From assembly GCF_016839145.1 (NCBI RefSeq), contig NZ_CP069304.1, positions 558,001-622,000 of the forward strand: a stretch of 64,000 nt of DNA, in the 5' to 3' direction. The translations under genes were made by a program, and so were the position numbers. Positions 19,557 to 52,028 of this stretch are shown piece after piece (positions within the stretch are counted from its first letter, which is position 1; every line of letters begins with the position of its first letter). The notes beneath the pieces were generated by a model. That model was given only the letters and a program-made list of their open reading frames with translations. It did not search any database and was not told the origin of the DNA. This DNA comes from Shinella sp. PSBB067 (GTDB lineage: Bacteria > Pseudomonadota > Alphaproteobacteria > Rhizobiales > Rhizobiaceae).

Positions 19557-20524
19557 CAGCGGCCAAGGCCTTCCAGAAACTCGGGTCGCTTGCCGTCCCC
19601 CTCACGCTCGTCGTCGTGCTGCTCGCGATCGCCGCGGTCCGCTCGCCGAACCTGTTCACGCCGTCCGGCATCGGCAACGGCATCCTCGTCGCGGCGCCGC
19701 TGTTCTTCGCGACCATGGCGCTCACGCCCATCGTCATGTCTGGGCGAGGGGCGGTGGACCTGTCGATCGGCCCGCTGATCGGCTTCCTCAACGTGACGCT
19801 GATTACCTGGCTGTCGGCCAGGGGCATCACGCATCCGGTCCTGTTCATCGGCTGGGCCCTTTTTGCCGGCGCGCTGTGGCAGGTCCTGCTGGCGCTGATC
19901 GTCATCTATGTCCGCATCGCGCCGATCATCGTCTCGCTGTCCGGCTATCTGGTCCTGAGCGGGGTCAACCTGATGATCATGTCGCGGCCGGGCGGCGTGG
20001 CGCCCGACTGGCTCATGAACTGGGGCGCCGCCAGTGCCGCACAGGTGATCTCGCCGATCTTCCTGCTCGCGCTGGTCGCCTTCGTGGCCTGGGTCGCGAT
20101 CACCCGCACGGGCTTCCATCGCCAGTTGCGCATGGTCGGCTCCGACGAACGCATGGCCTACACGGCCGGCATCAATGTCGATCTCGTCCGCCTGATCGCC
20201 TTTGCCATCGGCGGCATGTTCGCGGGCCTGGCGGCGCTGAGCTATACCGCCCTCATCGCCTCCGGCGATCCGACCCAGGGCTCGACCTACACGCTGCAGG
20301 CGGTCACCGCACTGGTGCTGGGTGGCGCGAGCCTTTCCGGCGGGCGTGGCGGCGCGATCGGCGCGGCTCTCGGCGCGGTCAACATGTTCCTCATCAACTA
20401 CCTCCTGGGAACGTTCAATTTCGGCTCGCTGTCGGGCTACGTTACCCAGATGGCCTTCGGAGCGATCCTCGCATGTTCTCTTCTGGTGAACCTCTTCACG
20501 TCTCCGTCCGCGAGCAAGGCATGA
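19553..20524 (+). CDS. Sugar-type ABC transporter permease (RbsC family)
   Basis: A 323-residue inner-membrane protein with about eight to ten helices. It has the family landmark SGRGAVDLSIGPLIGFLNV, and near the C-terminus GGASLSGGRGGAIGAALGAV, which matches the ATPase-coupling loop of BPD_transp_2 permeases. It pairs with the second, non-identical permease at 20521-21549 to form a heterodimeric channel. It is translationally coupled on both sides: start overlapping the ATPase stop, stop overlapping the next start. Confidence 0.9.
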   Translation: MTAAKAFQKLGSLAVPLTLVVVLLAIAAVRSPNLFTPSGIGNGILVAAPLFFATMALTPIVMSGRGAVDLSIGPLIGFLNVTLITWLSARGITHPVLFIGWALFAGALWQVLLALIVIYVRIAPIIVSLSGYLVLSGVNLMIMSRPGGVAPDWLMNWGAASAAQVISPIFLLALVAFVAWVAITRTGFHRQLRMVGSDERMAYTAGINVDLVRLIAFAIGGMFAGLAALSYTALIASGDPTQGSTYTLQAVTALVLGGASLSGGRGGAIGAALGAVNMFLINYLLGTFNFGSLSGYVTQMAFGAILACSLLVNLFTSPSASKA

Positions 20525-21549
20525 GGAAGGACATGGACAAGACCGCCGACACCACGCTTTCTCCGGGCCGCTCCGCCGCCGGCATCCGCGTGCAGAGATC
20601 GCTCGCCATCGGCGCCGGCCTCCTGGCCGTGCTTGCCGTCGCCGGTGCCGTGCTGGTTCCGGGCTTCGTCTCGATGCAGAACGCCCGATCGATCCTGCTG
20701 CTCGCTTCGTTCCTCGGGATCGCCTCGCTGGGGCAGACGCTCTGCGCGCTGCTCGGCGCGCTCGACCTGTCGATACCCTTCGTCATCGGTTCGGCGAATA
20801 TCCTGCTGCCGAGCCTGCTGGTGTCCGGCCTGCCGCCGGCGGTGGCGATCGCGCTGATCCTCCTGCTCGGTGCGCTCGTCGGCGCGGTCAACGGGTTGAT
20901 GAGCTTCAGGATCCAGGGGCAGGCGCTGATCATGTCGCTCGCCGTCGGCTTCGCCGTGGTCGGCGCGACGCAGATCTATACGACGCTCGGCTCCATCTAT
21001 GCCGGGACGGTCTTCGCCACAATTCCCGACTGGCTGCGCAACCTCGCCGCCTTCAACGGCACCACCCTCGGCATTCCCATGCCCCCGGTGATCCTGATCT
21101 GGGCCATCCTGGCGGCCGTCGTGATCCTCGCCATGCACCGCACCTGGTTCGGCCGCGGCATCTATGCGCTCGGCGGAAGCCGTGTCGCGGCGGCGCGGCT
21201 GCAAATCTCCGAGCGCAAGCTCTGGGTCGCCGTCCATGCGATTTCAGGCGTGGCCTCGGTCTCGGCCGGCATGCTGCTGCTCGGCTTTTCCGGCGGCGGT
21301 TTCGTCGGCGTCGGCGATCCCTACCTCTTCACCACGGTCGCGGCGGTCGTCATCGGCGGCACGTCGCTGCTTGGCGGCGCCGGCGGCTATGGCGCCACCG
21401 TTCTCGGCGTGCTGGTGCTGACCGTGCTGACCTCGATCCTGGTCGGCCTCGGCCTCAGCTTTGCCTCGCAACAGGCCGTGGTCGGCCTGCTGATCATTCC
21501 GATGGTGGCGATCTACGCCCGCGCCCCGCACATCCGCAACCAGATCTGA
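20521..21549 (+). CDS. Sugar-type ABC transporter permease (RbsC family)
   Basis: A 342-residue inner-membrane protein, second half of the heterodimeric channel. It has about eight to ten helices; LCALLGALDLSIPFVIGSAN corresponds to the GIDLSVG landmark, and GGTSLLGGAGGYGATVLG to the coupling loop. The ATG at 20521 overlaps the previous stop; a second ATG 12 bases downstream is an alternative start. The hydrophilic N-terminus of about 25 residues is longer than usual. Transport direction is import, given the associated periplasmic binding protein. Confidence 0.88.
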   Translation: MRKDMDKTADTTLSPGRSAAGIRVQRSLAIGAGLLAVLAVAGAVLVPGFVSMQNARSILLLASFLGIASLGQTLCALLGALDLSIPFVIGSANILLPSLLVSGLPPAVAIALILLLGALVGAVNGLMSFRIQGQALIMSLAVGFAVVGATQIYTTLGSIYAGTVFATIPDWLRNLAAFNGTTLGIPMPPVILIWAILAAVVILAMHRTWFGRGIYALGGSRVAAARLQISERKLWVAVHAISGVASVSAGMLLLGFSGGGFVGVGDPYLFTTVAAVVIGGTSLLGGAGGYGATVLGVLVLTVLTSILVGLGLSFASQQAVVGLLIIPMVAIYARAPHIRNQI

Positions 21550-38437: not shown

Positions 38438-39592
38438 ATGAAAATCGTCGACGTCAAAGCCTGGGCCCTCTCCGTGCCGGTCGAGGACGGCATCACCTTC
38501 GGCATCGGCAAGGTGCTGCGCCGCGACACCGTCGTCGTTCGCGTCGAGACGGAGAGCGGCATCGTCGGATACGGCGAATCCCATCACGGCCGCGCGGCGA
38601 GCTCGGTGGCCGATATCGTCAACAACCTGCTGCGCTATTTCGTGGTCGGAATGGACGCCAGCGACGTCACGGGCGTCTGGGCCAGGATATACGAGATGCA
38701 ACTGCGCAGCCACGGGATGGGCGCCGGCACCTCGATCGCCATGAGCGGCATCGACCAGGCCTTGTGGGATATCCGCGGCAAGGCCGTCGGCTGGCCGCTC
38801 TACAAGCTGCTCGGCGGGTCGAGGCGCGGCATCCCGGCCTATGCGGGCGGGGTGTCGCTCGGCTGGAGCGAGCCGGACGCGCTCTGCCAGGAGGTCGGCG
38901 CGGCGCTGGCGCTCGGTTACAAGGCCGTCAAGCTGCGCGGGGGGGACGCGCCCCGCCGCGACATCCAGCGGGTGGAGGCGGTGCGCAAGGCCTTCGGCGA
39001 CGATCTCGTCATCATGGTCGATGCCAACACGGCCTATTCGCTGGCAGACGCATTGGCGGTCCTGCCGGCTTTCGAGGCGCTGAACGTCGAATGGCTGGAA
39101 GAGCCCTTCGCGCCGCACGACCATCGCTCCTACGCGCAGGCCGACCGCAGCCGGATCCCGCTGGCGGCGGGCGAAAACCACTATACCCGCTTCGAGTTCC
39201 ACCGGCTGATCGAGGACGCGCATGTCCGCATCCTGCAGCCGGACCTGTCCAAGGCGGGCGGCATCACCGAGGTGCTCCGCATCGCCGCGCTGGGCTCGGC
39301 CTGGAAATTGCCGCTGTGCCCGCACACCGCGACGACCGGGATCAACATGGCGGTCACCATCCACGTCCTGGCCGCCGTCGAGAACGCGGGCTGGTTCGAG
39401 GGCGACATCTCCACGCCCAATCCGTTCCGCGACCAGCTTGTCTCCACGCCGTATGTGGTGGCAAAGGATGGTACCGTTTCGCCGCTGGACAGGCCGGGCA
39501 TCGGTGTCGAGGTGGACGAAGACTTCATCCGCGCCCATCCCTTCATCGAAGGGCCGGCTTATGCGCCTGGTCCGGCGCGGATGGTGCGATAA
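38438..39592 (+). CDS. Mandelate-racemase/muconate-lactonizing enzyme family protein
   Basis: A 384-residue enolase-superfamily enzyme. It has the capping domain and a (beta/alpha)7-beta barrel. Visible catalytic positions are the base motif at K165-L-R167 (the usual form is K-x-K), metal ligands in VDANTAYS, WLEEPF and AAGENHY, the Asp of LQPDLSKAGGI, and His296 in CPHTATTGI. The His-Asp pair places it near the racemase/sugar-acid dehydratase side. It likely dehydrates or epimerises an acid sugar brought in by the operon's transporter. The ATG at 38438 follows AGTGAGGAC; a TTG start at 38408 would overlap the ATPase stop. Confidence 0.85.
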   Translation: MKIVDVKAWALSVPVEDGITFGIGKVLRRDTVVVRVETESGIVGYGESHHGRAASSVADIVNNLLRYFVVGMDASDVTGVWARIYEMQLRSHGMGAGTSIAMSGIDQALWDIRGKAVGWPLYKLLGGSRRGIPAYAGGVSLGWSEPDALCQEVGAALALGYKAVKLRGGDAPRRDIQRVEAVRKAFGDDLVIMVDANTAYSLADALAVLPAFEALNVEWLEEPFAPHDHRSYAQADRSRIPLAAGENHYTRFEFHRLIEDAHVRILQPDLSKAGGITEVLRIAALGSAWKLPLCPHTATTGINMAVTIHVLAAVENAGWFEGDISTPNPFRDQLVSTPYVVAKDGTVSPLDRPGIGVEVDEDFIRAHPFIEGPAYAPGPARMVR

Positions 39593-39626
39593 TCCCCGGC
39601 TGCGGCCGGATTTGAGGGAGCCGGGA

Positions 39627-40346
39627 ATGCAGGAAGCGGAAAACCAGGTGATGCGGACCGTGAACGACCTGATGGCGTTCATCCAGAAGCGCGGCTACGA
39701 GCCGGGCGAGAGACTGCCTTCCGAACGCGACCTGACCGAGCGTTTCTCGGTCGGGCGCGGGGTAATCCGCGAGGCGCTGACCTTTCTGGAGGCCAGCCGT
39801 TACATCGAGCGCAAGCGCAATTCCGGCATCTACCTGACCGACGGAATGGACCAGGTCAGCCTGGAGGCGCTGGTTCTCTATTCCAAGGTCAATATTCCCT
39901 TCGACCGCCGGACCATCATGGATTGCATGGAGGTGCGCAAGATCCTGGAGGTGCAGGCCATCGCGCTTGCATGCAAGCGGCGCACCGAGGCCGACATCGA
40001 GACCCTGCGGCAGAACCTGCGCGACACGCAGGCGACGATCGAAGCGGGCGGAAGCATCGCCGAACTCGATTTCGAGTTCCATATGGCGGTCTTCCGCGCC
40101 GCGCAGAACGACATCTTCACCCGGGTCGTGACGCCCTTCTACCTCATGTCGCGGAACCGGCGGGAGGATTTCTTCCGCGATCCGAAGCACGGCGACGCAT
40201 CGCTCACCCAGCACACGGCGATCACGGCGGCCATCGAGGCCCGGGACGTCGACCTCGCCGTCGAGCTGATGGACCGGCATATCGGCCGGGTCGAGGACCA
40301 CTATCTGGTGTCGATGGGCGATGCGTCGCCTGCCGGAACATCCTGA
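39627..40346 (+). CDS. GntR-family (FadR subfamily, FCD domain) regulator of the sugar operon
   Basis: 239 residues. The winged helix at about 8-75 has the classic RLPSERDLTERFSVGRGVIREAL pattern (here given in part as RDLTERFSVGRGVIREAL), and the FCD domain spans about 90-230 with metal-type residues in ELDFEFHMAVFRA and HTAITAAIEARD. It sits inside the operon it probably controls. The palindrome TTGGTAGTACCAA at 34122-34134, over the -35 of that operon, is a good candidate operator. The ATG at 39627 follows GAGGGAGC. Confidence 0.9.
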   Translation: MQEAENQVMRTVNDLMAFIQKRGYEPGERLPSERDLTERFSVGRGVIREALTFLEASRYIERKRNSGIYLTDGMDQVSLEALVLYSKVNIPFDRRTIMDCMEVRKILEVQAIALACKRRTEADIETLRQNLRDTQATIEAGGSIAELDFEFHMAVFRAAQNDIFTRVVTPFYLMSRNRREDFFRDPKHGDASLTQHTAITAAIEARDVDLAVELMDRHIGRVEDHYLVSMGDASPAGTS

Positions 40347-40373
40347 CACGGCATTGAACCAATGGAGGAACGA

Positions 40374-41621
40374 ATGGGCAGCGACATGCTTCCGGAGCCC
40401 GAATATGCCCGCAACATGCGGCTGATCGGCTTTACCGAGATGGACGGCCGGTCGGACGGCGTGCAGATCATGATCAACAAGGGCCATGCGATCGTCGGGC
40501 ACATGTTCTCGCAGGGCTTTTCGGTGATCGACGTGCGCGACCCGCGCCGCCCCCGCCCGGTCAACTACATTCCCAGTCCGCCGAACACCTGGACGCTGCA
40601 TCTCCAGGCGCATGACGACCTGCTGCTGGTGGTCAACGCCAAGGACCTCTATCGCGATGCCGTCCTGATGGACGAGCGGAAATATTACACGGGCTCGATG
40701 CGCGACAAGCTGAGCGCGGCCGAGACGGGCTACAGCGCCGGCATGCGCGTCTACGACATCAAGGATCCCGCCAATCCGCGCGAAATCGGCTTCATGCCGG
40801 TCGATGGCGTGGGTGTCCACCGCATCTGGTACGTGGGGGGACGCTGGGCCTACATGTCGGCGATGCTGGACGGGTTCTCCGACTTCATCTTCCTGATCGT
40901 GGACATGTCCGATCCCACGCGCCCGGTGATCGCCGGGAAATACTGGCTGCCGGGCATGAACACCGCCGCAGGCGAGCGGCCTGCCTGGGACGACAGGAAA
41001 TTCCGCTATTCCTGCCACCACGGCCTCGTGGCGGGGGACACGGCCTATGTCACCTGGCGCGACGGGGGCGTCACGCTCCTCGACATCGCCGACAAGGGTA
41101 CTCCCCGGCTGATTTCCCATCGCAACTGGTGCCCGCCTTATGGCGGCGGCACGCACAATGCGCTGCCGCTGGTCGACCGCGATCTGCTGGTGGTGCTTGA
41201 CGAGGCAGTGCTGACGAACTGCGCCGACGGTGAGAAACGCATCTGGATGTTCGATATCCGCGAGCCGGCAAATCCCGTCTCCATCTCCACCATGCCGGCG
41301 CCGCAGGAGGCGGACTATATCGCCAAGGGCGGACATTTCGGGCCGCACAACCTGCATGAGAACAGGCCCGGAAGCTTCGTTTCGTCCGAGACGATCTTCG
41401 CGACCTACAACAATGCCGGCGTGCGCGCCTACGACATCCGCGATCCCTATCGCCCGGTGGAGATCGGCGCCTTCGTGCCGGCCGCCCCGCGGCGGTTCCT
41501 CGATCACCGGCCGGGCATTCCGCCCGTCCTGCACACCAACGACGTCTTTGCCGACGCCAATGGCCTGCTTTACGTTTCCGACATGAATGCGGGCCTGTCG
41601 ATCGTCGAGTGGCAAGGCTAG
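40374..41621 (+). CDS. LVIVD-repeat beta-propeller protein
   Basis: 415 residues built from repeated blades with the LVIVD pattern: FSVIDVRDPRRPRPV, MRVYDIKDPANPREIG, FLIVDMSDPTRPVIAG, VTLLDIADKGTPRLIS, IWMFDIREPANPVSIS, VRAYDIRDPYRPVEIG and LSIVEWQG. This is a seven-bladed arrangement with several clustered His residues (GVHRIWYV, SCHHGLV, GTHNALP, GPHNLHE). There is no signal peptide, although most LVIVD proteins are exported. ATG 40374 is preferred because GGAGGAACG lies before it; ATG 40362 adds four residues. Its role in a sugar operon is unknown; a metal-dependent hydrolase or lactonase activity is possible given the conserved His, but unproven. Confidence 0.8.
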   Translation: MGSDMLPEPEYARNMRLIGFTEMDGRSDGVQIMINKGHAIVGHMFSQGFSVIDVRDPRRPRPVNYIPSPPNTWTLHLQAHDDLLLVVNAKDLYRDAVLMDERKYYTGSMRDKLSAAETGYSAGMRVYDIKDPANPREIGFMPVDGVGVHRIWYVGGRWAYMSAMLDGFSDFIFLIVDMSDPTRPVIAGKYWLPGMNTAAGERPAWDDRKFRYSCHHGLVAGDTAYVTWRDGGVTLLDIADKGTPRLISHRNWCPPYGGGTHNALPLVDRDLLVVLDEAVLTNCADGEKRIWMFDIREPANPVSISTMPAPQEADYIAKGGHFGPHNLHENRPGSFVSSETIFATYNNAGVRAYDIRDPYRPVEIGAFVPAAPRRFLDHRPGIPPVLHTNDVFADANGLLYVSDMNAGLSIVEWQG

Positions 41622-41748: not shown

Positions 41749-42672
41749 TCAGGATGCGGGCAGGAGGCATTCGCGCAGGTAGGCGATGAAGCGGCGGCCG
41801 TAGCCGGGCAGCGGCATGGCCGAGGGCCAGATGGCCGATATTTCGAAATCGAGCGGCCTGCCGCGGTGCAGGATGTCGTGCGCGAGAAGGCCCTCCACCG
41901 GGCCGGTGCCCAGATGCGGCACCACGGCGACCCCGCTGCTCCTGGCGATGGCGAGCAGCGTGTGCGGCGAACCGGATTCCAGGGTCGGCTGCGCGAGGCA
42001 GCCTTCGGCCTGGCAGGCCGTTTCGAGCAATTCGCGCGTGAAATGCCAGCGATTGAGCAGGAGCAGCGGTTGGCGGCACAACTGCGCCAGCGTGACGGCC
42101 CCCGGTTCGGCGGTGAAGACCGAGGGGATGCAGAAGGCGCGCACGCGCATGGCGCCGATGTCGATGCGGCTGAAGCGATCGGGCCGCGCGAAATGGCGGG
42201 CGTTGATCGCCAGATGCAGTTCGTTGTCGTCGAGGCGGCGCGCAAGCTCCGCCCCGCCGCCTTCCTCCAGGCGGATGTCGATGTTGGGATTGTCCCGCTT
42301 CCAGGCGGGCAGCACCTCGCTCATGTGCCGCTCGATGACCTGGGAACAGGCGCCGACGCGCAGCAGGCCGCACTCGCCCTCGCGCATCTCGGCGACCGCA
42401 TCGTGGAGGCGCTTGCTCGCGGCGAGGACGGCCTGCGCATCGACCAGCAGCCGGTCGCCATGCACCGACAGGCGCAGGTTGCGGCCGCTGCGCTGGAAGA
42501 GCGGCAGCCCGAGCTCCTGCTCGAGCCGCTGGATCTGCCGCGACAGGGCCGGCTGGGTAAGGTTGAGCCGCTCGGCGGCCGAGGTGACGCTGCCGAGCTG
42601 GGCGGTCGTCACGAAACTTTTCAACAGCCTCTCGTCCAACGCGGGTCCCTCCGATTCATGCCGATCCTGCAT
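41749..42672 (-). CDS. LysR-family transcriptional regulator
   Basis: 307 residues. The N-terminal helix-turn-helix at about 12-70 reads LLKSFVTTAQLGSVTSAAER, LTQPALSRQIQRLEQELG; the substrate-binding domain spans about 95-300. The start (complement of 42670-42672) gives a normal LysR length, although the frame continues upstream. It is divergent from the aminotransferase gene at 42755 with an 82-bp gap, the classic arrangement in which LysR activates the neighbour in response to a pathway metabolite. Confidence 0.92.
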   Translation of the reverse strand: MQDRHESEGPALDERLLKSFVTTAQLGSVTSAAERLNLTQPALSRQIQRLEQELGLPLFQRSGRNLRLSVHGDRLLVDAQAVLAASKRLHDAVAEMREGECGLLRVGACSQVIERHMSEVLPAWKRDNPNIDIRLEEGGGAELARRLDDNELHLAINARHFARPDRFSRIDIGAMRVRAFCIPSVFTAEPGAVTLAQLCRQPLLLLNRWHFTRELLETACQAEGCLAQPTLESGSPHTLLAIARSSGVAVVPHLGTGPVEGLLAHDILHRGRPLDFEISAIWPSAMPLPGYGRRFIAYLRECLLPAS

Positions 42673-42754
42673 GTATCGCCAAGGGATATTTGCATTGGAC
42701 GCATGAGGCAAGCTGTGTCTAGGTAATGGCGCTTTTGAAATGACGAGGTATGCG

Positions 42755-43609
42755 ATGGCTGAAGCTCCTTCCGTATGGACGTGGTACGACAACCGCTGGC
42801 ACGCGGGCGATGTCCGCATTCTCGGCGCGGGCTCGCACGCGACATGGCTCGGATCGCTGGTGTTCGACGGCGCGCGCCGCTTCGAGGGCGTCGTGCCCGA
42901 TCTCGACCTGCATGCGGAACGGGTGAACGAATCGGCACGGGCGCTCGGCCTTCAGCCGACCCTGACGGTCGCGCAGATCATCGACCGCGTGCACGAGGGG
43001 CTGACGCATTTCGCGCCCGATGCCGCGATCTATATCCGCCCGATGTACTGGGCCGAGGAGAGCGATGCGAGCGTCGTCGCACCCGATCCGGCATCGACGG
43101 CATTCGCCCTGTGCCTGGAGAAGCGGCCGATGGCCGTGCCCGGCGGCTTCACCATCACCACGACGCGGTTCCGCCGGCCGACGCTGGAGACCATGCCGGT
43201 CAATGCCAAGGCCGCCTGCCTCTATCCCAACAACGCCCGCATGCTGGCCGAGGCCCGCGCCAGGGGCTTCGGCAATGCGCTGGTCTGCGACACGCTGGGC
43301 AATGTGGCGGAGCTTGCCACCTCGAACGTGTTCATGGCGAAGGACGGGGCGGTCTTCACGCCCGTGCCGAACGGCACGTTCCTCGACGGCATCACCCGCC
43401 AGCGGGTGATCGGCCTCCTGCGCGCGGACGGGGTCGCGGTGCACGAGAAGACGCTGACGGTCGGCGACTTCCGCGCTGCCGACGAGATCTTCAGCACCGG
43501 CAACATTTCCAAGGTCATGCCGGTCCTCGGCTTCGACGACCGCGCTTTCGACCATGGCCCGTTCGCGAAGAGAGCGCGCCAGCTTTACTGGGATTGGGCG
43601 CATAGCTGA
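42755..43609 (+). CDS. Class IV PLP-dependent aminotransferase (branched-chain type)
   Basis: 284 residues of fold-type IV. The PLP Lys is at about 152 in MPVNAKAACLYPN, the phosphate-binding stretches are VAELATSNVFM and FLDGITRQRVIGLL, and FDGARRFEG is the N-terminal motif. Family members use branched-chain amino acids, D-amino acids, aminodeoxychorismate or (R)-amines. The context of an uptake operon and LysR control points to catabolic use of a specific amine or amino acid rather than housekeeping valine/leucine metabolism. GAGG lies six bases before ATG 42755; an ATG at 42740 is in frame. Confidence 0.88.
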   Translation: MAEAPSVWTWYDNRWHAGDVRILGAGSHATWLGSLVFDGARRFEGVVPDLDLHAERVNESARALGLQPTLTVAQIIDRVHEGLTHFAPDAAIYIRPMYWAEESDASVVAPDPASTAFALCLEKRPMAVPGGFTITTTRFRRPTLETMPVNAKAACLYPNNARMLAEARARGFGNALVCDTLGNVAELATSNVFMAKDGAVFTPVPNGTFLDGITRQRVIGLLRADGVAVHEKTLTVGDFRAADEIFSTGNISKVMPVLGFDDRAFDHGPFAKRARQLYWDWAHS

Positions 43610-43629: not shown

Positions 43630-44040
43630 ATGAGTACCGTTCGCCTGTGGAGCGATGCCGAAGTCGAAGCGAACCCGCGCGTCAAGGCGGTGTTCGACGA
43701 CATCCGCGCCACCCGCAAGTCCGATTTCGTCAACAATGTCTGGCGCGCGCTCGCCAACCAGCCGGATACGCTGGAGCGCATCTGGGCGGGCCTGAAGGAC
43801 ATCATGGTCAAGCCCGGCGCGCTCGATCCGCTGGTCAAGGAAATGCTCTATATCGCCGTGTCGGTCGCCAATGGCTGCAGCTATTGCGTCCATTCCCACA
43901 CGGCGGCCGCCAAGGCGAAGGGCATGACCGAGGACCAGCACGGCGAGCTGCTCGCGGTGATCGGCATGGCCTCGCAGACCAACGCCCTGCTCAACGCGCT
44001 GCAGCTGCCGATCGACCCGCAGTTCCTGGTCGAGAGCTGA
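43630..44040 (+). CDS. AhpD-like / carboxymuconolactone decarboxylase family protein
   Basis: A 136-residue helical protein. GCSYCVHSHTAAAKAKG places the redox pair Cys83-x-x-Cys86 with a following His, as in alkylhydroperoxidase AhpD. Such proteins reduce peroxides or handle reactive intermediates. AAGGAGA precedes the start. It lies between an aminotransferase and a quinone oxidoreductase, suggesting a detoxification or electron-transfer step in the same pathway. This differs from the CxxC-less relative at 15051-15479. Confidence 0.87.
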   Translation: MSTVRLWSDAEVEANPRVKAVFDDIRATRKSDFVNNVWRALANQPDTLERIWAGLKDIMVKPGALDPLVKEMLYIAVSVANGCSYCVHSHTAAAKAKGMTEDQHGELLAVIGMASQTNALLNALQLPIDPQFLVES

Positions 44041-45177: not shown

Positions 45178-46164
45178 GTGCCAGAGAGCCGCTCCCTGTT
45201 CAGGATATTCACGCAGGAAACCATCGTGCTGATGATGGCGGTGGCGCTGTTCGCCGGCTTCGCCCTCGCGCTCGACGGCTTTACCGCCCCGGCCAACCTC
45301 CTCAACATCGTGCGGAGCGTTTCCGTCCTGGGGATCCTCGCCGCCGGCATGGGCATCGTGGTCATCGGACGGGGCATCGACCTGTCCATGGTGTCGATCA
45401 TGGTCGTCACGGTCGCCATCCAGCTCCAGCTTCTCCAGGCGGGATGGTCGCTCTGGTCCGCCAGCGCCGTGGTGGCCGCCATCACGCTGGCGCTCGGCTT
45501 CATGAACGGTTTCATGGTGGCCTATGCCGGCGTCTCGGCCCTGTTCGCGACGCTCGCGTCCAGCGCCTTCGTCTTCGGCTTCGTGCGCTCGCGCATCCTC
45601 ACACAGGACGTGATCTACATTCCCGAGACGGCCGGCACGCTGCTGTGGCTGGGCAAGGCGCGCATCCTCGGCCTGCCGGTCGACGTGGTCGTCTTCCTCG
45701 CCGTGGTGGCGGTGGCGCTGGTGCTGCTGCGCTGGTCGCGGCCGGGCCGCTTCCTCTACCTGATGGGCGACAATTTCCAGGCGGCGCGCACCATGGGCAT
45801 TCCCGTCCGCCCGCTGATCGTCGCCTCCTTCATGGCGAGCGCCCTGCTTGCCTGGCTTGCGGGCGTGGCGAGCGCCGTCAGCCTGCAGAGCATGAACACG
45901 CGCCTCGTCAATTCGGCGCTTCTCTACGATGTCGTGCTGGTCGTGGTGATCGGCGGCATCGGCCTTTCGGGCGGCAAGGGCGGCATGCGCAACGTGGTGG
46001 TGGGCGCGCTGCTGATCGGCATCCTGCTCAACGGCATGACCATCCTCAACCTGCCCAACATCCACCAGAATCTCATCAAGGCGCTGATCCTCCTCGGGGC
46101 GATCATCCTCGATGGGCAACTCAATCCCCGCGACGAGCAGACCAGTCAGCAGGGCGACATCTAG
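45178..46164 (+). CDS. Sugar-type ABC transporter permease (RbsC family)
   Basis: About 328 residues with eight to ten helices. The landmark reads IVVIGRGIDLSMVSIMVV and the coupling loop GGIGLSGGKGGMRNVVVGAL. The upstream start is unclear: GTG 45178 gives a normal N-terminus (VPESRSLFRIFTQETI), while a TTG at 45100 adds 26 residues. No strong ribosome site is seen. The 135 bases between the quinone oxidoreductase and this start may hold a promoter, but none was convincing. It pairs with the permease half of the fusion at 47339. Confidence 0.85.
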   Translation: MPESRSLFRIFTQETIVLMMAVALFAGFALALDGFTAPANLLNIVRSVSVLGILAAGMGIVVIGRGIDLSMVSIMVVTVAIQLQLLQAGWSLWSASAVVAAITLALGFMNGFMVAYAGVSALFATLASSAFVFGFVRSRILTQDVIYIPETAGTLLWLGKARILGLPVDVVVFLAVVAVALVLLRWSRPGRFLYLMGDNFQAARTMGIPVRPLIVASFMASALLAWLAGVASAVSLQSMNTRLVNSALLYDVVLVVVIGGIGLSGGKGGMRNVVVGALLIGILLNGMTILNLPNIHQNLIKALILLGAIILDGQLNPRDEQTSQQGDI

Positions 46165-46250: not shown

Positions 46251-47279
46251 ATGAGCAAACTGACGAAGACACTGCGGCATGCGATCCTTGCGGGCGCCTG
46301 CCTTGCGGGTGCGGTCATCGGCGCGCAGGCGCAGGAGACCAATCCCGGCCCCGAGGCCTATCGCTCCGCGCTGGAAGGCAAGCGCGTCGTGATGGTGCCG
46401 ATGACCATGGGCTTCGACCTGGCGCAGGGCTGGAACCACTTCATCGGCGAGGAGGTCAAGCAGTTCGGCGGCATCTGGGAAACGCGCGATCCCAACTGGA
46501 GCGTCGATGCGGGCGCGCAGGCGATCACCGACCTCATCTCGTCCGCCGAGAAGCCGGACGTGCTGATCGTCCAGACGCCGGACCTCAACTCCTATTCGCG
46601 CCTCTTCAAGCGCGCGCAGGAGGCGGGCATCTTCGTCATCCAGCTCGACAACCCCTCGAACTACGCCTCCGACGTCTTCGCCGGCTCGGACTGGAAGCGT
46701 CTCGGCGAACTGGAGACCCAGGCCGTCATCGACCATTGCGGCGAGGGCTCCTCCAAGAAGATCGCGGTCATCCAGGGCGACCAGGTGAACGCCTCCAGCC
46801 TCGACCAGTGGGCCGGCGTGCAGGCGGTCCTCGAGCGCAATCCGGGCTGGACGGTGGCGGGCACCGCCGATTCCAACTGGGACGCGACGACGGCGCGCAA
46901 CGCGGCCGCCACCATCCTCCAGCAGCATCCCGACGTCTGCGGCATCGTCGACTTCTGGGATGCGACGGCGCAGGGCACCGCATCGGCGATCCGCGACGCC
47001 GGCCTCAAGGACAAGATCTTCCTCGCCACGACGGGATCGGGCGAGGCCATCGACTGCAAGCTGCTGGAGGACGGCACCTTCGGCGCCATCGTGACCAGCG
47101 AGCTGCCGCGCCAGTCGCAGGACGTCGTGGCGGCGATCAAGATCCTGCTCCAGAGCGGCATCAAGCCGGGCGAGAGCAAGAACTACCTCTATACGCACGA
47201 GATCGCCCGCACCAAGAAGGACGTCGCGCCCGGCACCTGCTGGAGCCAGGCCGAGATCGAGGCCGCCGCCAAGAAATGA
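46251..47279 (+). CDS. Sugar-type ABC transporter substrate-binding protein (RbsB-like)
   Basis: A 342-residue periplasmic protein with a signal peptide at about 1-26 (AVIGAQAQ-ET). The type I fold shows VVMVPMTMGFDLAQGWNHF, SSAEKPDVLIVQTPDLNSY, VIQLDNPSNYASDVFAG, SKKIAVIQGDQ and VCGIVDFWDATAQGTA. GCGGAGGCAATGAC precedes ATG 46251. It delivers substrate to the permease pair. The fused and free propeller proteins of the same operon suggest a lactone or glycoside-like ligand, but binding residues do not identify it. Confidence 0.9.
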   Translation: MSKLTKTLRHAILAGACLAGAVIGAQAQETNPGPEAYRSALEGKRVVMVPMTMGFDLAQGWNHFIGEEVKQFGGIWETRDPNWSVDAGAQAITDLISSAEKPDVLIVQTPDLNSYSRLFKRAQEAGIFVIQLDNPSNYASDVFAGSDWKRLGELETQAVIDHCGEGSSKKIAVIQGDQVNASSLDQWAGVQAVLERNPGWTVAGTADSNWDATTARNAAATILQQHPDVCGIVDFWDATAQGTASAIRDAGLKDKIFLATTGSGEAIDCKLLEDGTFGAIVTSELPRQSQDVVAAIKILLQSGIKPGESKNYLYTHEIARTKKDVAPGTCWSQAEIEAAAKK

Positions 47280-47338: not shown

Positions 47339-49477
47339 ATGACCCTCCGCGAGAAACTCACCCGCCTGCGCTACAACAAGGTGCCCGATCACCTGCTGGG
47401 CGAAATCCTGTCGAAGAGCTGGGCCGACAATCTCGTGCCCTTCGCCTTCCTCCTCGTGGTGGTGGCCGCCTTCGGCCTTCTCCTGCCGGGCTTCTTCGCG
47501 CCCTCCAGCCTCCTCGACACGACGCGCCAGCTCGGCGAATTCCTGATCGTCGTGCTCGGCCTCACGGTCGTCATCATCGGCGGCGGCATCGATCTTTCCG
47601 TCGGCTCGATCTTCGCGCTCGCCGCCTTCGCGACGCTTGCCGTCATCTACATCGCCGAGGGGCCGGTCTGGCTGGCGCTGCTCGCCGCGCTCGGGGCCGG
47701 TGCGCTTTTCGGCGCGCTCAACGGTTTTCTCGTCGGCTATCTTCGCCTGCGCGCCTTCCTGACCACGCTGGTCACGCTCATCATCGGCCGCTCCCTCTAC
47801 GATATCCTGATCACCACATGGGGCGCGCGCATCCAGAGCTCGCCGGTGTTCAACGACACGTTCGACCATATCGGCATGGGCGCGGTCTGGGGCCAGCCGA
47901 TCAGCGCGCTGATCGCGCTCGCCTTCGCGCTCGTCGCCCATCTGGTGATGAGCCGCTCGCGCATCGGCTGGCACTTTACCGCCGTCGGCGGCGCGCGCCG
48001 CTCGGCCTTCAATGTCGGCATCAACGTGCGCCGCACGATCTTCCTCACCTATGTGATCTCGGGGGCCGCCTGCGGGCTGGCCGGCTTCCTCTTCGCCGCG
48101 CGCCTTTCCGGCGTCGGGCCGGGCACGGGGCTGGGCCTGGAGCTCGCCGCCCTCACCGCCGCCGTCGTCGGCGGCAACAGCCTCGGCGGGGGGCGCGGCT
48201 CCATCGCCAGGGGGCTGATGGGCGCCGTCGTCGTGCTGCTCATCACCAACGGCCTCATCCGCATGGGCGCGGGCACCGGCACCAGCCAGCTCATCGTCGG
48301 CCTGCTGCTGGCGGCCGCCATCGTGCTCGACGTGCGCTGGCTGAAGAACCGCCACAAGGTCCTGTCCGAAGTCTATGTCGCCCCGCTGCACCATGCCATG
48401 CAGCCCGCCCAGTCGGCGCTGCCGGGCTCGGGCACGGCCTATGCGCTGAACGATGCGCTGGCCTCGGCCGAGCCCATCGCGCTCGGCACGGTCGAGGGGC
48501 CGGAGGACGTGATCCTCGATGCCGACGACAATCTCTATGCCGGCACGCGCCATGGCCAGATCGTGCGCTGGTTCGCGCCGGACTATACGCGCTCGGAGGT
48601 GTTCGCCCATATCGGCGGCTTCCCGCTCGGCCTTGCCATGGGCCGCGACGGGGAGATCGTCTCCTGCGTCGGCGCCATGGGCCTTTACGGCGTGGCGAAG
48701 GACGGCGACGTGCGCGAGCTTTCCACGGAGACGCAGCGCTCGCTCTTTTCGGTCGTCGACGACGCGCGCCTGCGCGATCCGAACGATTGCGACATCGGCC
48801 CGGACGGGCGCATCTGGTTCACCGATTCCACCACGCGCTACGATGCCCATGACTGGGCGCTCGATTCCATCGAAAGCCGGCCGACCGGTCGCCTCCTCGT
48901 CCACGACCCGAAGACCGGCAGGACGCGCACCGTGCTGAAGAACCTGCGCTATGCCAACGGCGTCTGCCTCTCCCATGACGGCCAGTCGCTGCTGATCGCC
49001 GAAAGCTGGGCCTGCTCGGTGCACCGCTACTGGATCGCCGGCCCGAAGGAGGGCCGGCTGGAAACGGTGATCCGCGACATGCCCGGCTATCCCGACAACA
49101 TCAACCGCGCCTCGGATGGCACCTACTGGATGGCGTGGCTCGGCATGCGCACGCCGAGCTTCGACCTGGCGCTGCGCCACCCCGCCATGCGCAAGCGCAT
49201 GACGCGCAACCTGCCGCAGGACGACTGGCTCTTCCCGAACATCAACACCGGCGGCGTGGTGAAGTTCGACGAGACGGGCGCCATCGTCGCCACGCTCGGC
49301 GATCTCGGCGGCGCGGCCCATCCGATGGTCACCTCGATGCGCGAGCACAAGGGCTGGCTCTATATCGGCGGCATCCTCAACAACCGTATCGGCCGCATCC
49401 GCCTGCCCGATGCCGATCCGCACTGGACGAGCTGGAATTCCTACTGGGCAGGCCCGGCCTCGGGAGAAAGGGCATGA
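47339..49477 (+). CDS. ABC permease fused to strictosidine-synthase-like beta-propeller
   Basis: 712 residues. Residues 1 to about 335 are an RbsC-family permease: IIGGGIDLSVGSIFALAAF, then GGNSLGGGRGSIARGLMGAV and LIVGLLLAAAIVLDVRWL. A linker at about 340-378 leads into an SMP-30/strictosidine-synthase/APMAP-like propeller at about 380-712: EGPEDVILDADDNLYAGT, DPNDCDIGPDGRIWFTDS, LLIAESWACSVHRYW, MPGYPDNINRASDG and LYIGGILNNRIGRI. The permease end of this family is cytoplasmic, so the propeller should face the cytoplasm and meet substrate on entry. A lactonase-type reaction is a reasonable guess. An in-frame ATG at 47276 overlaps the previous stop. The single frame shows no frameshift, so the fusion is real in this sequence. 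Confidence 0.85.
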   Translation: MTLREKLTRLRYNKVPDHLLGEILSKSWADNLVPFAFLLVVVAAFGLLLPGFFAPSSLLDTTRQLGEFLIVVLGLTVVIIGGGIDLSVGSIFALAAFATLAVIYIAEGPVWLALLAALGAGALFGALNGFLVGYLRLRAFLTTLVTLIIGRSLYDILITTWGARIQSSPVFNDTFDHIGMGAVWGQPISALIALAFALVAHLVMSRSRIGWHFTAVGGARRSAFNVGINVRRTIFLTYVISGAACGLAGFLFAARLSGVGPGTGLGLELAALTAAVVGGNSLGGGRGSIARGLMGAVVVLLITNGLIRMGAGTGTSQLIVGLLLAAAIVLDVRWLKNRHKVLSEVYVAPLHHAMQPAQSALPGSGTAYALNDALASAEPIALGTVEGPEDVILDADDNLYAGTRHGQIVRWFAPDYTRSEVFAHIGGFPLGLAMGRDGEIVSCVGAMGLYGVAKDGDVRELSTETQRSLFSVVDDARLRDPNDCDIGPDGRIWFTDSTTRYDAHDWALDSIESRPTGRLLVHDPKTGRTRTVLKNLRYANGVCLSHDGQSLLIAESWACSVHRYWIAGPKEGRLETVIRDMPGYPDNINRASDGTYWMAWLGMRTPSFDLALRHPAMRKRMTRNLPQDDWLFPNINTGGVVKFDETGAIVATLGDLGGAAHPMVTSMREHKGWLYIGGILNNRIGRIRLPDADPHWTSWNSYWAGPASGERA

Positions 49478-50544
49478 CGCTCCTCGACCGCCTGCTCGAT
49501 CCGTTCCGCGGCGAAGCCATCACCATTCCGCCCTATGACGGCGCATGGAAGCCGAACACGCTGCTGGAAACCGCCGCCAAGGTCGCCACGCTGGCGGAGG
49601 CCGACAATCTCGCTCGCGATGGCGACGGGGCTGTCTGGCTGTCGGGCGGCCCGGTGCTCTACCGGCTGGCGGGGCGGGACGTGGAACCGGTCGCCACCTT
49701 CCCCTCGGCGATCACCGCGCTGGCTGCCCTGCCGGCCGGAGGGCTCGTCGTGGCGCTTTCCGACGGCGGCCTGCTCCTGCGGCGCGGCGGGGAGAGCCGC
49801 GACCTGCGCGAGGCCTTTCCCGCCGCCGTCTCGGCCACGGCGCTCTTCGCGGGCGATGACGGCACGCTGCTGGTCGCGCAGGGCTCGGCCGGTCTGCCGG
49901 CGACGGAATGGGTGCCGGCGCTGATGCGCAAGCGGCGTGACGGCGCGCTCTGGCGGCTCGACCTTGCCGGCGGAAAGGCGGAGCGGATCGCCGATGGGCT
50001 TGCCTTCCCGACGGGACTGGCGCTCGACGAAAGCGGTGCGCCCGTCGTCGCAGAGGCCTTCGCGCATCGGCTCGTCGCCCTTGGCGGCGGGCGCCCGCGC
50101 ACCGTTCTCGATCGCATCCCCGGCTATCCGGGGAAGCTTTCGCCGGCCAGCGGCGGCGGCTGGTGGCTGGCGGTCTTCGCCCCGCGCAACAGGCTGATCG
50201 AACTCGTGCTGCGCGAGGACCGCTTCCGCGCCGACATGATCGCCACCGTGCCGCAGGACCACTGGATCGCCCCCGCGCTGCGCTCGGGCGAGAGCTTCCT
50301 GGAGCCGCTGCAGCGGGGCGGGGTGCGCACCATGGGCGTGCGCAAGCCCTGGGCGCCCGCGCGGTCCTACGGCCTTGTCGCACGGCTGGACGCGCAGTTC
50401 CGCCCGGTCGAAAGCCTCCATTCGCGGGCAGACGGGCGGCGCCATGGGGCGGTCTGCGTGCTGGACCTGCCGGAAAGCCGGCTGGTCGCCTTCAAGGGGG
50501 CGGGCGAGGTCGTCGATATCCTGAACCGGGAGCCGCAGGCATGA
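49474..50544 (+). CDS. Strictosidine-synthase-like / SMP-30-type beta-propeller protein
   Basis: 356 residues, soluble, no signal peptide. It contains propeller strands (ADNLARDGDGAVWLSGG, FPTGLALDESGAPVVAEAF, IPGYPGKLSPASGGGWWLA) and ends with RRHGAVCVLDLPESRLVAF. It is more divergent than the propeller half of the preceding fusion and lacks its NDCD motif, but has the same overall order. The start ATG overlaps the fusion stop (ATGA). Possibly the two propellers work together, one membrane-tethered and one free. The catalytic residues cannot be assigned from sequence alone. Confidence 0.75.
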   Translation: MTLLDRLLDPFRGEAITIPPYDGAWKPNTLLETAAKVATLAEADNLARDGDGAVWLSGGPVLYRLAGRDVEPVATFPSAITALAALPAGGLVVALSDGGLLLRRGGESRDLREAFPAAVSATALFAGDDGTLLVAQGSAGLPATEWVPALMRKRRDGALWRLDLAGGKAERIADGLAFPTGLALDESGAPVVAEAFAHRLVALGGGRPRTVLDRIPGYPGKLSPASGGGWWLAVFAPRNRLIELVLREDRFRADMIATVPQDHWIAPALRSGESFLEPLQRGGVRTMGVRKPWAPARSYGLVARLDAQFRPVESLHSRADGRRHGAVCVLDLPESRLVAFKGAGEVVDILNREPQA

Positions 50545-52028
50545 CCACCATCCTCGAGGCACGCGCGCTGACCAAGGCCTTCCACGGCAACGTGGCGGTG
50601 GACGCGGTCGATTTCGACCTTGCGGCCGGGGAGGTCCATGCGCTTCTCGGCGAGAACGGCGCCGGCAAGTCGACCTTCAGCAAGCTCCTGGCCGGCGTCT
50701 ATCCGCCCGAAGGCGGCGAGATCCTCTATCTCGGCGAGCCGCTGCGCGCCGAGGGGCCGGCGGAAGCGCTCAGCCGCGGGATCGCCATGGTCTACCAGGA
50801 AACGAGCCTCGTGCCCTCGATGACCGTGGCGCAGAACCTGTTCCTCGGCCATGAAAAGGCGTTCAACCGCCTGCGCGGCATCACCATCGCGGCGCAGCAG
50901 TTCCTGCAATCGCTGAACTTCACCGTCGATCCGACCGCGCTGGTCTCCAGCCTCGGGGCGGCCAAGCGCCAGATGGTCGAGATCGCCCGCGCGGTGCGGC
51001 TGAATGCGCGCGTCATCATCTTCGACGAGCCGACGGCGACGCTGACGCCCGAGGAGCGGCGGCATTTCTTCTCGCTGATCGAGCGCCTGCGCGCCCGCGG
51101 GGTCGCCATCGTCTTCATCACCCACGCGCTGGAGGAGGCGCTCCAGATATCCGACCGCATCACCGTCATGCGCGACGGCCGCAGGGTGCTGACCGAAAAG
51201 GCCCGGGACCTGACGCAGGCGCGCATCGTCCAGGCCATGGTCGGCCGGGAACTGGCGACCGAATTCACGCCGCGCACCGGCACCCGGCCGGCCGGCGCGC
51301 GCGTGCTTTCGGTCGAGGACGTCTCGATGGGCGCGCTCGTCCGCAACACGTCCTTCTCGGTCTTCGCCGGGCAGGTGACGGGCCTCTTCGGCCTCGTCGG
51401 CTCGGGCCGCACCGAGACCGCCAAGATCGTCGCCGGCGCCTTCAAGCGCGATTTCCTGCGCGGCGGCGCCATCGAATACGAGGGCCGTCCCGTGCGCTAT
51501 GCCACGCCCGGCCCGGCCGTCGCGGACGGCATCGTCTATGTGACCGAGGACCGCAAGCTCGAAGGCTTCTTCGAGAACATGTCGATCGCCGAAAACCTCT
51601 ATGCCGGGCTGCTGGCGGCGGGGCTGAACCGTTTTCCCTTCGTCTCCCTGTCGGAGATGAAGGCGCTGGCCGAAGAATGGACCGGCAGGCTCGCCATCCG
51701 CTCGATCGGCGCCGAGGCGCGCGTGGTCGAGCTGTCCGGCGGCAACCAGCAGAAGGTGGTGATCGGCAAGGCGCTGATCCAGAAGCCGCGGCTCATCATC
51801 TTCGACGAGCCGACGCGCGGCGTCGACGTCGGCGCGGTGGCCGAAATCCACGCGCTCATCCATCGCCTCGCCGACGAGGGCCTCGCCGTCGTGGTGATCT
51901 CCTCCTATCTCCCGGAAATCCTCTCCCTTTCCGACCGCATCCTGGTCGCGAGGCAGGGCCGGGTGGTCGAGGAATTCTCGCCCGTCGACGCATCCAGCGA
52001 AAGCATCATGTATGCCGCGGTGCACTGA
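50541..52028 (+). CDS. Sugar-type ABC transporter ATP-binding protein (duplicated NBD)
   Basis: A 495-residue RbsA/MglA-type ATPase. The first half has Walker A GENGAGKST, a family-type signature (SSLGAAKRQMVEIARAV) and Walker B VIIFDEPTATLTPEE. The second half has GLVGSGRTE, LSGGNQQKVVIGKAL and LIIFDEPTRGVDVG, all normal for the family. It energises the importer of the 45178-49477 permeases. Its start overlaps the free propeller gene stop, so the operon is continuous. It is the last gene of the operon. Confidence 0.92.
   Translation: MTTILEARALTKAFHGNVAVDAVDFDLAAGEVHALLGENGAGKSTFSKLLAGVYPPEGGEILYLGEPLRAEGPAEALSRGIAMVYQETSLVPSMTVAQNLFLGHEKAFNRLRGITIAAQQFLQSLNFTVDPTALVSSLGAAKRQMVEIARAVRLNARVIIFDEPTATLTPEERRHFFSLIERLRARGVAIVFITHALEEALQISDRITVMRDGRRVLTEKARDLTQARIVQAMVGRELATEFTPRTGTRPAGARVLSVEDVSMGALVRNTSFSVFAGQVTGLFGLVGSGRTETAKIVAGAFKRDFLRGGAIEYEGRPVRYATPGPAVADGIVYVTEDRKLEGFFENMSIAENLYAGLLAAGLNRFPFVSLSEMKALAEEWTGRLAIRSIGAEARVVELSGGNQQKVVIGKALIQKPRLIIFDEPTRGVDVGAVAEIHALIHRLADEGLAVVVISSYLPEILSLSDRILVARQGRVVEEFSPVDASSESIMYAAVH

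Follow-up and report, generated by a model that had tools for sequence, protein, structure and literature searches.

A conserved fusion of a CUT2-type permease with a strictosidine-synthase-like propeller, encoded beside a candidate pseudoenzyme

Introduction

ABC importers of the CUT2 family, that is, of the RbsC (ribose) type, commonly comprise a Peripla_BP_4 binding protein, BPD_transp_2 permeases and an ATPase with two ABC_tran stretches, as in RbsABC, XylFGH, AraFGH and YtfQRT; the C-terminus of RbsC is cytoplasmic. As a rule, an importer does not share a polypeptide with the enzymes that act on its cargo. The strictosidine-synthase-like (SSL) subgroup of the N6P superfamily has in common SSL_N and Str_synth domains, a propeller of six blades and a set of metal-ligand positions, and its characterised members are soluble or secreted enzymes. 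APMAP is a membrane-tethered propeller of the SSL type, held by one N-terminal anchor and facing the lumen or the outside. Here we describe a gene of Shinella sp. PSBB067 in which a CUT2 permease continues into an SSL propeller, together with the operon to which it belongs. The window analysed is the whole stretch of 64,000 nucleotides between positions 558,001 and 622,000 of contig NZ_CP069304.1, and all coordinates refer to it.

According to the available text of PMC4215206, four metal ligands appear to be conserved in the great majority of SSL proteins, which are therefore likelier to be hydrolases than strictosidine synthases, and the proven strictosidine synthases are metal-independent outliers. 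TGW6 of rice (8KG3) is described as an indole-3-acetic acid (IAA)-glucose hydrolase in the available text of PMC10958001.

A permease and a propeller in one reading frame

A single open frame without a stop (47339-49477) encodes, by translation, a protein of 712 residues with the following parts.

47339..49477, + strand: fusion gene, made up of a CUT2/RbsC-type permease (residues 1-332), a linker (333-372) and a six-bladed SSL propeller (373-704)
47339..48334, + strand: permease half of the fusion, with ten predicted membrane helices and both ends predicted to be cytoplasmic
48455..49450, + strand: propeller part of the fusion (residues 373-704)

Four Pfam domains were found above the gathering cut-off: BPD_transp_2 (residues 59-326, 1.1e-35), SSL_N (367-411, 8.4e-15), SGL (416-602, 1.3e-15) and Str_synth (482-568, 5.1e-21). 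The scores against all 11 NCBIfam models listed were far under the cut-offs of those models. A protein search with the fusion, in which scoring was limited to the 7995 candidates with the most shared words, yielded 3024 hits; the 120 homologues listed, 68-97% identical, all contained the same four domains. Source names, where given, included 'SMP-30/gluconolactonase/LRE family protein', 'ABC transporter permease' and 'ribose transport system permease protein'. The fusion is real and conserved, and its presence in 120 of 120 listed homologues rules out a sequencing error as the origin of the join. The initial annotation had placed permease and propeller in one polypeptide and made this reading hinge on relatives having the same fusion; its coordinates were right, and the relatives share the arrangement.

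Two observations would fit a join created during assembly or sequencing. In one Rhizobium record (sp. OAE497) the halves appear as two distinct proteins (P0152 and P0310), and searches with each half alone returned many proteins, among those listed, that hold one half only. From their names, their identities and their mostly short contigs we take the one-half-only proteins for fragments of the fusion. Given that every listed full-length homologue is fused and that named genomes and plasmids agree, such an artefact is ruled out for all practical purposes.

Fold and orientation of the fused protein

The structure of the fusion was modelled from a wider alignment of 93 rows, with a confident result (predicted local distance difference test, pLDDT, of 89.8). 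This model superseded an earlier, poor one (pLDDT 65.3) based on an alignment of 50 of 121 close relatives. The last membrane helix ends at residue 346 and the propeller spans residues ~373 to 704, which fits the limits of about 1-335 and 380-712 that were first assigned to the two parts. The PDB matches of the modelled propeller were TGW6 (the best match), strictosidine synthases and DFPase. The rows listed for the whole-chain model were all propeller matches, with no PDB fold for the permease half among them.

The limits of the ten membrane helices were placed by hand on the model. Lysine and arginine account for 19 of the 120 inner-loop residues of the permease half and for 1 of the 48 outer-loop residues, and this charge bias strongly points to the cytoplasmic side as the location of the fused propeller. 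The initial annotation had reasoned that a cytoplasmic C-terminus like that of RbsC, if present, would put the propeller on the side opposite to that of eukaryotic APMAP; the topology prediction agrees with this arrangement.

Metal-ligand positions in the fused propeller

In an alignment of the fused propeller with TGW6, the putative metal ligands fall on E389, N482, N540 and N587. The codons of these residues, and of D586, are as follows.

48503..48505, + strand: codon E389, putative metal ligand, aligned with TGW6 Glu-59
48782..48784, + strand: codon N482, putative metal ligand, either N or D in members of the family
48956..48958, + strand: codon N540, putative metal ligand, aligned with TGW6 Asn-226
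49094..49099, + strand: codons D586 and N587, putative metal ligands, N587 aligned with TGW6 Asn-272

D586 is adjacent to N587, as D269 is to N270 in PON1. The offset of 28 between the numbering of the TGW6 paper and that of the alignment is our own derivation, and it fits all four residues.

Conservation was counted in 91 fusions, namely the best 80 loci of a genome scan and 11 loci from a scan of relatives. All five positions, which are those of the paraoxonase/SSL type, are kept in 83 of the 91, and seven more deviate at position 482 alone (D for N). The set is whole in 80 of 80 genome-scan loci, the eight exceptions all falling among the 11 relatives-scan loci. Residue 386 is E in 86 of the 91 fusions, D in four and N in one, and E386 fits the SMP-30/DFPase motif. 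As first choice for the metal Glu it was rejected, since the TGW6 alignment and the residue numbers of the paper favour E389; E386 remains an alternative. The ligand region is covered by 56 of the 93 rows of the wider alignment, where residue 386 was left free in the counts. N482 is present in 19 of these rows and D482 in 28, with E389, N540, D586 and N587 intact in both groups; the remaining nine are truncated or deviate elsewhere. There are two common versions of the putative site, N482 in the nearer relatives of the window and D482 in most members at ~50% identity.

By its fold and domains (six-bladed propeller, SSL_N, Str_synth) and by its kept metal-ligand positions, the fused propeller falls within the SSL subgroup of the N6P superfamily. 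True synthases lack the four ligands, and since the fused propeller keeps the positions, strictosidine synthase activity was discarded as its likeliest activity. The residues argue moderately for hydrolysis by the fused propeller, which is probably an N6P-superfamily hydrolase.

The operon and the downstream solo propeller

The fusion gene is the third of five genes on the same strand, preceded by perm1 and the binding protein and followed by the solo propeller and the ATPase. The other four are listed here (aa, amino acids).

45178..46164, + strand: second CUT2 permease (perm1), without propeller; the GTG start is our own choice
46251..47279, + strand: periplasmic substrate-binding protein, Peripla_BP_4, with a signal-peptide-like N-terminus (by eye)
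49474..50544, + strand: solo propeller, 356 aa, overlapping the fusion stop by ATGA
50541..52028, + strand: ABC ATPase with two ABC_tran stretches (XylG/AraG/RbsA-like), overlapping the solo gene by ATGA

The ATGA overlaps of the fusion, solo and ATPase genes suggest coupled translation. Pfam assigned BPD_transp_2 to perm1 (2.3e-26), Peripla_BP_4 to the binding protein (1.5e-35) and two ABC_tran stretches in one chain to the ATPase (9.1e-50); the operon contains the BPD_transp_2 permease, the two-cassette ATPase and the Peripla_BP_4 protein that mark a CUT2 importer.

The operon was surveyed in 86 loci, consisting of the best 80 of 311 places confirmed in a species-genome scan (36 of the 80 are Mesorhizobium by title) and six plasmid loci. 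The five-gene order is complete in 81 of the 86. The other five (L026, L030, L033, L040 and L095) start at a contig end, with the fusion adjoining the solo gene in each; the solo propeller is present in 86 of 86. Fifteen plasmid records matched, of which six were read (Pantoea, Paraburkholderia, Paracoccus, Salipiger, Celeribacter and Sulfitobacter), and the annotated order is the same in all six, the Salipiger table ending at the solo gene near the end of the record. In L022 (Brucella pituitosa) the binding-protein and solo genes are each in two pieces in different frames, and the fusion is whole. Median identities to the window, taken over 72 to 80 of the 80 loci per part with rows of less than 80% coverage dropped, were 74.6% for the fused propeller, 68.9% for a carboxymuconolactone decarboxylase (CMD)-like neighbour, 66.3% for the ATPase, 62.3% for the fused permease half, 59.1% for the binding protein, 57.7% for perm1 and 48.6% for the solo propeller. 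No other part in this comparison is as well conserved as the fused propeller.

No signal peptide was seen by eye in the solo propeller, and its Pfam score against SGL was under the cut-off (20.2 versus 26.3 bits). An hhalign comparison with the fused propeller covered 286 columns (probability 99.8, E 1.6e-28), and on this alignment the solo propeller is a paralogue of the fused one. The five ligand positions were counted in 89 solo copies, two of the 91 loci having been dropped for short matches: none is kept in 71 copies and one in 18, so that at most one is kept in 89 of 89. The ligand positions of a metal-dependent N6P hydrolase are absent from the solo propeller, and the operon appears to pair a candidate for a conserved pseudoenzyme (solo) with a candidate for a conserved enzyme (fused). 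The initial annotation, sound as to the fusion, made no mention of the ligand-free solo propeller, the five-gene operon or the CMD-like gene.

A ligand-free solo propeller in 86 of 86 loci is also what one might expect if the two propellers formed a regulatory or assembly module, pairing on the cytoplasmic side and gating transport by binding substrate or product (trans-inhibition), with no bond cut. C-terminal domains of some ABC ATPases gate transport by trans-inhibition, many propellers only bind, and a fusion without the ligands (L018) still sits in such an operon. The fused propeller is, however, the best conserved part, and hydrolase-type residues are kept in 90 of 91 fusions when either N or D is accepted at 482; a module that served for docking alone could do without these residues, and we consider a regulatory or assembly module rather unlikely.

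Distribution

At E ≤ 1e-60 the fusion had matches in 11 of the 61 relatives scanned. At E ≤ 1e-100, 7 of 289 genomes from the class and 11 of 398 from the phylum matched, all 11 belonging to the class of the window; the class and phylum samples share some genomes, and the genome of the window is included in these counts. The family is patchy in distribution, and several genomes hold two copies. One gammaproteobacterial plasmid (Pantoea, 66%) and one betaproteobacterial plasmid (Paraburkholderia, 56%) carry the fusion, which has thus spread beyond the Alphaproteobacteria. SSL_N was found at 16 places in 15 of 190 genomes of the class; the stop-to-stop frame exceeds 700 residues at five of them (fusion-sized, including the window), measures 358-412 residues at ten and 636 at one (a weak match). 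The genome of the window has only the SSL_N of the fusion. The frames of free-standing size make free-standing SSL proteins a possible source of the fused domain.

Neighbouring genes

Four genes upstream of the operon recur in other loci.

41749..42819, - strand: LysR regulator, true start probably more internal, linked in some of the loci
42740..43609, + strand: class IV aminotransferase of the PRK13356 type, linked in some of the loci
43630..44040, + strand: CMD/AhpD-like protein, 136 aa
44044..45042, + strand: NADPH:quinone-reductase-like dehydrogenase, likewise linked in some of the loci

The CMD/AhpD-like protein, whose nearest solved relative is 2ouw (4.3e-58), has a homologue in 73 of 86 loci. 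Its gene directly follows the ATPase in 52 loci and follows an aminotransferase gene placed after the ATPase in 15; in the window it lies upstream of the operon, between the aminotransferase and quinone reductase genes. All three genes are present in 19 of the 86 loci. Neighbours were clustered, from mechanical gene calls anywhere in the locus and with names taken from representatives, over 46 loci (34 of the 36 Mesorhizobium rows were dropped from the 80): CMD-like 35, quinone reductase 24, aminotransferase 19, LysR 18, glutamine synthetase 14, N-formylglutamate amidohydrolase 13, an unrelated ABC ATPase 13, isochorismatase 11, short-chain dehydrogenase 10 and RpiR 9. The RpiR, isochorismatase, glutamine synthetase and amidohydrolase genes form a cluster of varying place and orientation in L045, L050, L053, L054, L055, L060, L072 and others. 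The best matches of the amidohydrolase (43%) and the isochorismatase (46%) in the genome of the window adjoin each other on another contig. We read the plasmid neighbours as genes of tetrose-type sugar catabolism in Pantoea, of CoA-esters in Paraburkholderia and Sulfitobacter, and of a ring-hydroxylating dioxygenase in Celeribacter.

The PDB matches of the binding protein were weak and pointed to no clear substrate. Since the catabolic neighbours differ between loci, no one substrate follows from them, and a range of substrates is probable; the transporter and the two propellers are constant in these varying surroundings, and this speaks for a function in uptake rather than in a single pathway. 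The same consideration applies to a further explanation, in which the propeller would be a cytoplasmic hydrolase of an ordinary kind, fused for its amount or its place at the membrane and acting on a later pathway intermediate. Catabolic genes are common neighbours, as it would predict, and 10 of the 16 SSL_N places in the class lie in short stop-to-stop frames. The propeller and its ligand-free partner nevertheless stay with the transporter when the catabolic neighbours change, and this leaves an ordinary hydrolase unlikely.

Elsewhere in the window, a second pair of CUT2 permease matches (~19592-21528; 28% and 31% identity) probably belongs to another sugar importer. An LVIVD-repeat, propeller-like protein (40362-41621) lies beside a GntR/FCD regulator (39222-40346) in which ~145 residues precede the DNA-binding domain; the 80 genome-scan loci yielded homologues of neither.

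Discussion

Overall, we put at about even the chance that the fused propeller is a tethered cytoplasmic hydrolase that cuts an ester- or lactone-like bond in the solute as it enters, the solo propeller being its non-catalytic partner. The importer has two unlike permeases, one plain and one carrying the SSL propeller at its predicted cytoplasmic C-terminus. The binding protein would deliver a sugar-like solute that has a bond of the ester, lactone or similar type; once the solute had come through the pore, the tethered propeller would open this bond at the inner mouth, and the cleaved product could not return and would feed a neighbouring catabolic pathway. The solo propeller, as ligand-free paralogue, would most likely assist the fused one in a structural or regulatory role. 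The nature of the substrate and the coupling to transport are weakly indicated. As to the proposal of the initial annotation that an enzyme domain processes substrate at entry, the residues that hydrolases of the superfamily need are present, and the processing is what we infer from them.

Several observations weigh against a tethered hydrolase. The 91 fusions are mostly close relatives, and one of them (L018, 42% identical) has none of the five ligand positions, a loss that a purely catalytic role would not predict. Position 389 of the solo propeller is D in 80 of 89 copies, so that one corner of the site is partly kept, and the catabolic neighbours change between loci. In the available text of PMC10958001 the TGW6 crystal is described as without Ca2+; as TGW6 has the same E/N/N/DN residues, ligand residues are no proof of a metal site. 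The fusion of L018 is accompanied by a solo propeller without most of the ligands, possibly a wholly non-catalytic version of the system.

A broader proposal, which we offer tentatively, is a class of coupled importers in which a hydrolase under the permease cuts the solute as it leaves the pore and makes uptake one-way, the dead propeller completing or gating the pair; the ester or lactone solutes would vary with the version of the system, plant sugar esters being an example. If true, a single-chain importer-enzyme with its pseudoenzyme would be a natural test of uptake made one-way by exit chemistry. The names 'SMP-30/gluconolactonase' and 'ribose transport permease' in the databases, each of which covers half of the protein, would likewise be put right. 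Both parts are of known kinds; no description of the fusion was found in the available text of the open-licence literature searched, in which its combination with a conserved ligand-free paralogue appears to be undescribed.

Compared with the known CUT2 importers, the present system has two unlike permeases, one of them with a C-terminal propeller, and an extra gene for a solo propeller. Compared with the SSL subgroup, it has the propeller joined to a permease of ten helices. TGW6, crystallised free of Ca2+, is a stand-alone plant enzyme, whereas the propeller described here is fused to a permease; the RPA3624 lactonase and DFPase are likewise stand-alone propellers and are about 15-20% identical to the fused one. 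APMAP has a single N-terminal anchor and a propeller on the outside, in contrast to the propeller of the fusion, which follows ten predicted helices and is predicted to be cytoplasmic.
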